From positions 1-64,000 of the forward strand of contig SBGP01000093.1 in the NCBI GenBank assembly GCA_006226595.1: a DNA stretch of 64,000 bases, given 5' to 3'. The notes beneath the pieces are model-generated. The model worked only from the letters and a program-made list of their open reading frames with translations. It was not told the origin of the DNA and did not search any database. This document shows, one piece after another, positions 61,964 through 64,000 of this stretch (within the stretch, counting starts at the first letter, position 1; the number at the start of each line of letters is the position of its first letter). The translations under genes were made by a program, and so were the position numbers. The DNA is from Deltaproteobacteria bacterium (lineage in GTDB: Bacteria; Myxococcota_A; UBA796; GCA-2862545).

Positions 61964-62986
61964 ATGGACAACGCTGAGCTTCTGTCCAAATTCCAGGGCC
62001 ATGTCACCAAGTTCGAGAAGTTCTACGGCTTCATCGAGAAGGCGAAGAGCCAGGCCGGCAAGTTCGCCCCCAAGGTCGTCGAGAAGGTCATCTCGGACAA
62101 CACCGAGAAGATGATGACCTGTCTCGAGGACATCATTCCGCTGATTGGTGACATCGAGACCCACGTCGCGGCGCTGGGCGAGAAGCGTGAGGCCACCCTC
62201 GGTGGTCGTCAGGCCTCTCAGTTCGCGATCGAGGAGCTGGAGCTGCGTCTCGCCATCGACGACCTCGGCCAGGAGGCGTTCGACCAGGCGGTGGCGGACC
62301 ACAAGGCCAAGGTCGATGGCATCGACGCGGCCGTGGCTGAGATCGACTCCGAGCTCGAGGCTTTCCAGGCCGAGCTCGACAAGTGGAGCAAGCTCGGAGA
62401 GGCCAGCGGGGTGTTCAACCCCGAGCCCGAGCCCGAGCCGGAACCCGAGCCGGAGCCCGAGCCCGAGCCGGAACCCGAGCCGGAGCCGGATCCGGTGGCC
62501 GACGAGCTCGCCGGCTTCGACGATGCCCAGCCCGAGGCGCACGTCGAGCAGGTCTCCATCCAGGACGACGTCTCGGCGGTCTTCGACGACCTCGGTGACA
62601 TCGCCATCGGTGAAGAGGACGACGTCGAGATCGAGGTCGACTCCGAGCCGATCGCGGTCGACGAGGCGCCCGCAGATGACGATCGCCCGCGGCGCGCTGT
62701 GCTCCTGTACCAGGAGGGCACCGCCGAGGAGCAGATCCACCCGTTCAACGGCGAGGTCATGTCCCTCGGCCGTGGTCGCGACAACGACGTGCAGGTCAAG
62801 AACGACAGCAAGGTCAGCCGCTACCACTGCAAGCTGTTCCGCCGGGATGGCAACTTCTACATCGAGGACAACCGCTCTGCGAACGGCACGCTGGTCAACG
62901 GCGAGTTGATCACCGAGCGTCGTCTGTTCGGCGGCGAAGAGGTCATCATCGGAGAGACCTTCTTCCGCTTCCGCATCCTCGACTGA
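61964..62986 (+). CDS. FHA-domain protein with coiled-coil N-terminus
   Basis: A 340-residue cytoplasmic protein. The first 150 residues are helical and charged, likely coiled-coil (for example IDAAVAEIDSELEAFQAELDKW). A Pro-Glu repeat follows (about 153-174), then an acidic linker, then an FHA domain (about 240-340) with SLGRGRDNDV, SRYHCKLFRR and NRSANGTLVNG, the phosphothreonine-binding core. It would recruit Thr-phosphorylated partners, for instance of Hanks-type kinases. It overlaps nothing and is followed after one base by the DHp-only gene. Confidence 0.88.
   Translation: MDNAELLSKFQGHVTKFEKFYGFIEKAKSQAGKFAPKVVEKVISDNTEKMMTCLEDIIPLIGDIETHVAALGEKREATLGGRQASQFAIEELELRLAIDDLGQEAFDQAVADHKAKVDGIDAAVAEIDSELEAFQAELDKWSKLGEASGVFNPEPEPEPEPEPEPEPEPEPEPEPDPVADELAGFDDAQPEAHVEQVSIQDDVSAVFDDLGDIAIGEEDDVEIEVDSEPIAVDEAPADDDRPRRAVLLYQEGTAEEQIHPFNGEVMSLGRGRDNDVQVKNDSKVSRYHCKLFRRDGNFYIEDNRSANGTLVNGELITERRLFGGEEVIIGETFFRFRILD
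62420..62485 (+). repeat. In-frame Pro-Glu repeat with perfect 30-bp duplication
   Basis: Eleven Pro-Glu dipeptide codon pairs. Bases 62426-62455 and 62456-62485 are identical 30-base units, codon by codon, including matching synonymous choices. Unit length is a multiple of three, so copy-number change would lengthen or shorten the linker without breaking the frame. Confidence 0.85.
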
Positions 62987-62987
62987 C

Positions 62988-63320
62988 GTGCCGGTCCTCG
63001 CCGTCAGAGACGAGGCGACGCGCGATGAGCTCCGGGCGGCGTTTGCCGCTGCGGGGCTCTCGTGGTCTGTAGAGCTGCATCGTGATCTGACGGGCGACGA
63101 GGACGTCGTCTTCACCGACACCCCGGTCGTTCGTCCCGAGCTGCGCAAGAAGCTCCGCCACGACGTCCGCACGCCGCTCGCCGTGATGCTCGGTCAGGCC
63201 GATCTGCTCGAGCTCGAGCCGCTGACCGCTCGGCAGCAGCGATGTGTGGACACGCTTCGCACGCACTGTGAGCGCCTCGAGGCCATGCTCACGAACATTG
63301 CGAGCGAAGTCACTCCCTGA
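62988..63320 (+). CDS. Stand-alone histidine-kinase dimerisation (DHp/HisKA) domain protein
   Basis: A 110-residue protein. Residues about 50-105 match a HisKA domain with H-box LRHDVRTPLAVMLGQADLL (His 58) and the paired helix LTARQQRCVDTLRTHCERLEAML. There is no ATPase domain in this or the next gene. The first 45 residues may be a shortened receiver-like fold but lack a clear phosphoacceptor. It could act as a phosphotransfer or dimerisation partner. The start GTG lies one base after the FHA stop, so the two are co-translated. A regulator with a receiver domain is next. Confidence 0.75.
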   Translation: MPVLAVRDEATRDELRAAFAAAGLSWSVELHRDLTGDEDVVFTDTPVVRPELRKKLRHDVRTPLAVMLGQADLLELEPLTARQQRCVDTLRTHCERLEAMLTNIASEVTP

Positions 63321-63431: not shown

Positions 63432-64000
63432 ATGGCCCGCAGGAAGAGCAGCGTCGATGGCCCGGTGTACTACACGACCTACCAGGTCGCGAAGTTCCTC
63501 GGTGTTTCCCTGCCCACGGTCGTGAACTGGGTGAACTCGGGCCTGCTCTCGGCGCACCGCACGCCGGGCGGTCACCGTCGTATCGCTCGAAACGACATCA
63601 TCGCGTTCGCCCGCGAGCAGAACTACCCGCTGTCCCGCGAGCTGCTCGGTGACGACGAGGGCGGCCAGCGCGTGCTGATCGTCGACGACGAAGAGGACTT
63701 CGCGGCGATGGTCCGCGACTACCTGACCCTGAAGGGCGGGTTCGAGGTCGAGGTTGCCGATTCCGGCTTTGCCGCCGGCTACACCGTGGCGCGCTTCAAG
63801 CCGCACGTCATCCTCATGGACCTGATGATGCCCGACATGGACGGCTTCGAGGTCCACCGCATGCTGCGCGACGACGAGGACACAAAGCACATTCCAGTGC
63901 TCGCGTGCACCGCGTACCGCGACCCGGTCGTCGACGCCCGCGTGGCCGAGGAGCGCTTCGACGGCTTCGTCGAGAAGCCGGTCAAGCTCGACCACCTGCT
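63432..64000 (+). CDS. BldC-like HTH / receiver-domain response regulator (3' end beyond window)
   Basis: An open frame with no stop, running off the window (189 codons seen). Residues about 10-65 form a MerR/BldC-type helix-turn-helix (YTTYQVAKFLGVSLPTVVNWV, then the family TPGGHRRIARND). Residues about 80-190 form a receiver with acidic pocket D85-D86, phosphoacceptor D130 in ILMDLMMP, Thr 160 and Lys 182 in VEKPVKL. HTH first, receiver second, is the reverse of the common order. AGGAAG six bases before ATG 63432 is a good ribosome site. The upstream direct repeats suggest autoregulation. Confidence 0.88.
   Translation, partial: MARRKSSVDGPVYYTTYQVAKFLGVSLPTVVNWVNSGLLSAHRTPGGHRRIARNDIIAFAREQNYPLSRELLGDDEGGQRVLIVDDEEDFAAMVRDYLTLKGGFEVEVADSGFAAGYTVARFKPHVILMDLMMPDMDGFEVHRMLRDDEDTKHIPVLACTAYRDPVVDARVAEERFDGFVEKPVKLDHL

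Follow-up and report, generated by a model that had tools for sequence, protein, structure and literature searches.

A free-standing DHp protein, possibly a reduced histidine kinase, encoded between FHA and HTH-receiver genes in a Myxococcota_A bacterium

Two-component sensors usually have their kinase and phosphatase activities locked in one protein. Spo0B keeps a C-terminal domain, the residues at positions H-1 and H+4 of its H-box are Arg and Asn, and a Spo0B-type Pfam model exists. It is described as a His phosphotransferase that forms dimers, with a presumed origin in a kinase after loss of the sensor and ATP-binding domains, and as about 246 aa long in Paenibacillus (PMC12826061), against the 110 aa of the protein studied here. 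ChpT is reported to be a DHp-type phosphotransferase without autokinase activity and to have an atypical Bergerat-fold C-terminal domain (PMC3433190), of which our protein has none. RetS/GacS and the ChrS pseudokinase are proteins of kinase origin with an effect on another two-component system (PMC12189002, PMC9491836). Of these, RetS is termed a hybrid kinase (PMC12189002), unlike the bare DHp here, and the truncated ChrS arose by laboratory evolution and does not need its His (PMC9491836), whereas our protein is natural and its His invariant. The isolated DHp domains of NtrB and EnvZ, likewise without an ATPase domain, are cited as sufficient for phosphatase activity, after Zhu 2000 (PMC3510030), but these are laboratory cuts from full kinases and not a natural gene. 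In a literature search outside which most subscription journals lay, we found no paper on a natural free-standing or ATPase-less DHp protein of this kind. Here we describe such a gene in a stretch of 64,000 nucleotides (the window) from contig SBGP01000093.1, and compare its locus across the order.

The DHp gene and its neighbours

The features of the locus are collected in Table 1. The GTG start of the DHp gene lies 1 base past the FHA stop (TGA), and 111 bases separate its own stop from the start of the HTH-receiver gene, which extends beyond the window end to a stop at contig positions 64041-64043. A promoter scan found none, and a terminator scan returned one, the same number as in shuffled sequence. 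The Pro-Glu repeat linker of the FHA protein is almost perfect at window positions 62420-62490.

Table 1. Features of the three-gene locus, in window coordinates
Feature	Position	Strand	Evidence
FHA-domain protein, 340 aa; N-terminal part, then Pro-Glu-rich linker, then C-terminal FHA domain	61964..62986	+	Pfam FHA E 1.3e-16, residues 267-330
ATPase-less DHp protein, 110 aa, GTG start	62988..63320	+	ORF; HisKA E 2.7e-10; no HATPase; syntenic relatives
DHp protein N-terminal 48 residues, candidate receiver remnant	62988..63131	+	profile match not significant
DHp (HisKA) core, H-box LRHDVRTPL	63153..63299	+	Pfam residues 56-104; model helices; dN/dS of residues 49-110 ~0.17
His58 codon, predicted phospho-acceptor; then Asp59; Thr62 = H+4	63159..63161	+	His, Asp invariant in 16/16 ATPase-less relatives
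HTH (MerR/excisionase-like) + receiver regulator, 203 aa	63432..64000	+	Pfam HTH_17 E 4.4e-14, Response_reg E 2.1e-22
Asp130 codon, receiver phospho-acceptor	63819..63821	+	D85, D86, D130, T160, K182 all present

The HisKA (PF00512) match of the window protein reached 40.6 bits against a cut-off of 26.9, and the chain ends 6 residues beyond it. A histidine kinase carries HATPase_c with N, G1 and G2 boxes in the same chain; among the Pfam matches of this protein up to E 10 there was no HATPase model, and since only 111 bases remain before the next start, no HATPase domain can lie 3' of the DHp. The Spo0B-type and HPt-domain models were likewise absent from its matches up to E 10, and from those of the 16 ATPase-less proteins of this locus up to E 1, searches in which HMMER's filters drop most weak matches. 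By these features the protein stands outside the Spo0B, ChpT, HPt-protein and histidine-kinase types.

The predicted structure has helices at residues 50-58, 61-74 (a kinked first helix) and 81-108, that is, a two-helix hairpin after an N-terminal helix, as expected for a DHp and not for a four-helix HPt; the model was built on an alignment of four sequences and has moderate confidence (pLDDT 72). RetS/GacS DHp domains were the closest solved structures by sequence, although weakly (best E 0.00036), and the best kinase matches of the model in Foldseek, also weak (E at best 0.49), with none of 139 matches reaching E 0.001. These results bear out the first-pass annotation, which had described a 110-residue frame with an H-box and a paired helix but no ATPase domain, next to an FHA protein and a receiver regulator. 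It had also considered that a missing stop or frameshift might make the frame the N-terminus of a full kinase, or that the fold might not be DHp. The 111-base gap and the same gene order in G001 speak against the former, and the kinked DHp-like hairpin of the monomer model against the latter. A broken full kinase in the window is ruled out by that gap, by the same-genus relative and by the short forms found elsewhere.

Of the 74 HisKA matches in the window's own genome, 71 are followed by HATPase_c within 900 bases. That of the window is one of the three exceptions, and its open frame is the shortest of these (136 aa, against 252 for the next). The best match of the DHp protein to a kinase of its own genome shows low similarity, with 33% identity and E 5.9e-4. 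A kinase relocated elsewhere was found in neither G000 nor G001: matches there to the full kinase of the locus reached at best 36-37% over the kinase core, and none extended to its C-terminal 155 residues. G001, of the same genus, has the three genes in the same order, with a DHp protein of 112 aa, 58% identical to the window's. Between G000 and G001, dN/dS (Nei-Gojobori) was about 0.17 for the DHp part, about 0.40 for the N-terminal 48 residues and 0.07 for the HTH-receiver, values that are only approximate because dS is near 1. Three other pairs of short forms gave 0.45, 0.39 and 0.55 over the whole protein, which is a moderate, weaker constraint. These rates speak for a real gene whose DHp part is under purifying selection in the G000-G001 pair.

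Forms of the locus across the order

An HTH-receiver search of 63 genomes of the order (threshold E 1e-30, at most 50 candidates per genome scored) found the regulator among the candidates scored in 46, and an FHA gene lies upstream of it in 42 of these. All 46 neighbourhoods were inspected; many of the genomes are incomplete. Thirteen (11 in family f2, 2 in f5) have a full kinase of 655-781 aa between the FHA and HTH-receiver genes. Pfam scans of four of these found HisKA, HATPase and a GGDEF-like C-terminus in all four, and an N-terminal receiver in all three f2 kinases scanned, one below cut-off; the others were classed by length and by their aligned H, N, G1 and G2 boxes. One genome, G045, has a kinase of 471 aa with HisKA but no HATPase match, in which the key residues of the N, G1 and G2 boxes are gone and the H-box is retained. 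ATPase-less DHp proteins of about 68-187 aa were found in 16 genomes (10 f1, 5 f2, 1 f5). All 16 have a HisKA match at E <= 1 and none has a HATPase match at that level; three of the six scanned singly fall below the HisKA cut-off (L043 25.8, L135 25.0 and L045 22.1 bits). At the remaining scored loci, 13 in number (4 f1, 2 f3, 5 f4, 2 f6), no histidine protein lies between the FHA and HTH-receiver genes. Three neighbourhoods went unscored, one at a contig edge (G047) and two of a different kind (G023 and G006). In G068, of another family, HisKA also lies between the FHA and HTH-receiver genes, and the part that comes after it gave no HATPase match up to E 0.01.

At 12 of the 13 loci without a histidine protein, the gap between the FHA and HTH-receiver genes is at most 97 bases, so that a middle gene lacking an H-box is conceivable only in G031, where it is 193. 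Because both neighbours persist in these 13 genomes, the FHA and HTH-receiver genes form the constant core of the locus, and the histidine protein is its variable part. This adjacency ties the FHA protein to the HTH-receiver and is silent on a relay; the cross-phosphorylation relay between phosphothreonine and His-Asp signalling that had been proposed for the three genes finds no support in any result here.

A scan of named genomes with the HTH-receiver kept 80 loci, of which three (L048-L050) are part of this system and entered the analysis; they coincide with G051, G035 and G038, to judge from contig number and coordinates. The corresponding scan with the DHp protein found no relative. The record that holds L048, MAG CAMAWH010000003.1, is titled Klebsiella pneumoniae, a title that looks wrong for a genome of the window's order.

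Several further observations were made at these loci. In most of nine f1 junctions that were read, with G011 as the exception, the DHp gene starts at or adjoining the FHA stop. In G009 (L021), G018 (L022) and G012 (L024), no ATG, GTG or TTG lies between the FHA stop and the H-box; the sole coupled start would be a CTG overlapping the FHA stop as CTGA, where G008 has TTGA. The start codons of these three genes are thus uncertain: translation may begin at CTG, or a frameshift from FHA may lead into them. In G011 (L025, 1041-1337) a Pro-Asp-Glu repeat tail (PDELPDEPPDE...) follows the second helix of the DHp protein. The f2 kinases at L048, L049, L050, L146-L152 and L154 have a GGDEF-like C-terminal domain in which the signature motif is replaced, for example by ARVDAESFAL, and the phospho-Asp is lost from several of their N-terminal receivers. 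In G023 (L155, 1333-3942, minus strand) an 870-aa protein with NACHT and leucine-rich repeats lies upstream of a similar HTH-receiver, replacing the FHA and kinase genes.

The receiver of the HTH regulator has an intact catalytic set at all 30 loci with a histidine protein. At the 13 loci without one, it is intact in six and altered in seven, that of G025 being read by eye. All seven altered receivers belong to f4 and f6, and the six in the tree, from which G025 was left out, share one branch, so the alteration may be a single event. The association between a histidine protein and an intact receiver is suggestive only, and the regulator can apparently manage without a histidine protein, since six such genomes keep the receiver intact. 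At L133, L136, L137, L138/L161, L139, L140 and L142, all f4 or f6 loci without a histidine protein, acidic-pocket or switch residues are lost and the FHA gene is still adjacent.

Descent and conserved residues of the short forms

A profile built from the exact translations of seven short f1 forms scored 36.4-87.8 bits against the 23 other proteins of the locus and at most 34.9 bits against 31 distinct kinases of the window's own genome (of 74 HisKA matches), a margin that is narrow for the lowest f2 members (36.4 vs 34.9 bits). In a DHp tree, the locus members were separate from 14 own-genome kinases (support 99/96). By the receiver profile of the full kinases, two ATPase-less proteins carry such a receiver at the N-terminus, G055 (E 1.5e-24) and G008 (E 1.2e-5). 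The N-terminus of the window protein was also tried as a receiver remnant, and its match to this profile fell short of significance (E 0.5 in hmmsearch; P 0.023 and a probability of 2% in hhalign).

A tree of FHA and HTH-receiver sequences with 41 rows needed three changes between full and ATPase-less forms, with G045 taken as ATPase-less and empty loci left out of the count. A 29-row tree in which G045 was not so taken had four changes, three of them forced by well supported branches; such numbers cannot separate loss from gain. We read the series as running by loss, since the form with a decayed ATPase domain resembles an intermediate, as do the remnants of the receiver. Against repeated loss, a tree of the 63-column DHp core united all 16 short forms (support 91/94), which is compatible with a single origin. 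Three groupings with repeated loss were not rejected (p 0.249, 0.307 and 0.549), and for the last of them the constrained tree was the better one. G055 has an identity of 0.43 to the f2 full kinases vs 0.32 to the f1 short forms, and G028 of 0.44 to the f5 full kinases vs 0.37 to the f1 short forms; the four g20 proteins are about equally identical to the full and short groups. Convergence may account for the joint grouping of the 16 short forms.

Outside the H-box the short forms are variable. The H-box positions were anchored by a pattern that requires His-Asp and that fitted 30 of 30 locus proteins, and a free alignment agreed that none of the 16 short forms has lost the His or the Asp after it. 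Arg at H+3 and Pro at H+5 were each found in 15 of them. At H+4 all 14 long forms (13 full kinases and G045) have Ser, and the short forms have Thr in six, Ser in five, Asn in three and Gly in two. The residue at H-1 is Ser in 13 of the 14 long forms, and Arg in 13 of the 16 short forms. Among own-genome kinases (26 readable of 30 fetched, from 74 matches), H-1 was never Arg and H+4 was Thr in 23. Sign tests of both positions against ATPase loss had too few pairs. Taken across the order, it seems quite possible, and we put it forward tentatively, that the ATP-using half was dropped several times in parallel at this one locus; that the free DHps, some of only about 70 residues, were selected for an ATP-free DHp function; and that parallel changes followed from Ser to Arg at H-1 and, in many, from Ser to the phosphatase-type Thr or Asn at H+4.

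Possible activity of the DHp protein

The reading that we prefer, to which we give a little less than an even chance, is that the window protein is a reduced histidine kinase acting without ATP on the adjacent HTH-receiver, most likely with net dephosphorylation. Only the hairpin for dimerisation and phosphotransfer would be left of a kinase, and two DHp copies would form a four-helix bundle that binds the receiver of the co-encoded HTH regulator. The regulator would first be phosphorylated by acetyl phosphate or by another of the cell's many kinases, and the DHp protein would then remove the phosphoryl group, either as a phosphatase via Thr62 or by taking it onto His58 in a reverse Asp-to-His transfer. 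Net removal appears the most likely direction because a DHp has no means of charging itself when the ATPase domain is absent. The adjacent HTH-receiver is the likeliest partner, since the DHp protein looks like a reduced form of the full kinase that related families have at the same locus. Of the earlier proposal of a phosphotransfer hub, a phosphotransfer role is a possible part, and this neighbour makes a likelier partner than a general hub would imply.

Work on DHp phosphatases supplies several points of comparison, all as given in PMC3510030. The ATPase domain greatly raises the phosphatase activity of a DHp; in CrdS, Asn at H+4 is required for this activity and Thr is partly active; an acid at H+1 is required for kinase but not for phosphatase activity; and the His is of little importance for phosphatase activity. 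Thr62, and Thr or Asn at H+4 in 9 of 16 short forms, are the right kind of residue for a putative DHp phosphatase. The invariant His and Asp together with a variable H+4 would fit better with His~P chemistry than with a pure Thr/Asn phosphatase.

The same invariance of His and H+1 Asp is also what a relay of the Spo0B/ChpT kind would predict, in which a hybrid kinase from elsewhere would give phosphate, by way of its receiver, to the DHp protein, which would pass it on to the HTH-receiver. The intact receiver of the regulator and the supply of kinases in the genome (74 HisKA matches, 71 with HATPase downstream) agree with it, and ChpT is reported as unable to autophosphorylate (PMC3433190). 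However, no donor receiver was identified, the C-terminal domain kept by ChpT is absent here, and Spo0B- and HPt-type models are missing from the Pfam matches. We consider such a relay unlikely, though the nearest rival to ATP-free dephosphorylation.

It is considerably less probable that the hairpin forms a heterodimer with a full kinase through the DHp of the latter and so alters that kinase's activity or recruits the regulator, a mode of action described for RetS/GacS and proposed for the ChrS variant that lacks its ATPase domain. RetS/GacS DHps are indeed the closest solved sequences and folds, albeit at the weak values given above, and a ChrS variant without ATPase domain is reported to act in vivo in a manner that needs the DHp and not the His (PMC9491836). 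The His is, however, invariant in the DHp proteins here, the truncated ChrS gave no significant heterodimerisation according to the same source, and the similarity to own-genome kinases is low. About as improbable is a decaying remnant without function, which would suit the 13 of 46 genomes with nothing at the locus, the short proteins that vary outside the H-box, and the dN/dS of 0.39-0.55 in some short-form pairs, but not the lower dN/dS of the DHp part in the G000-G001 pair, the H-box kept in all 16 short forms, or the gene start at or adjoining the FHA stop that most f1 junctions show (nine read, G011 being an exception). A split kinase, in which the missing ATPase part would be supplied in trans by a protein of its own, would account for the invariant H+1 Asp, an acid required for autokinase activity (PMC3510030), but is very improbable, as no small ATPase-only protein was found in the own genome (9 of 80 HATPase_c matches lack an upstream HisKA, all in frames of at least 318 aa) and a search of G000 and G001 turned up no copy of the locus's full kinase at another place.

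In summary, a full kinase, a kinase with a decayed ATPase domain, a bare DHp and nothing at all are found at one locus in related genomes, beside the same partner genes. This locus lets one ask which activity selection keeps once the use of ATP has been abandoned, and whether a DHp alone is a phosphatase, a relay or a dimer partner. It thereby offers a natural test of what the DHp half of a kinase does alone.
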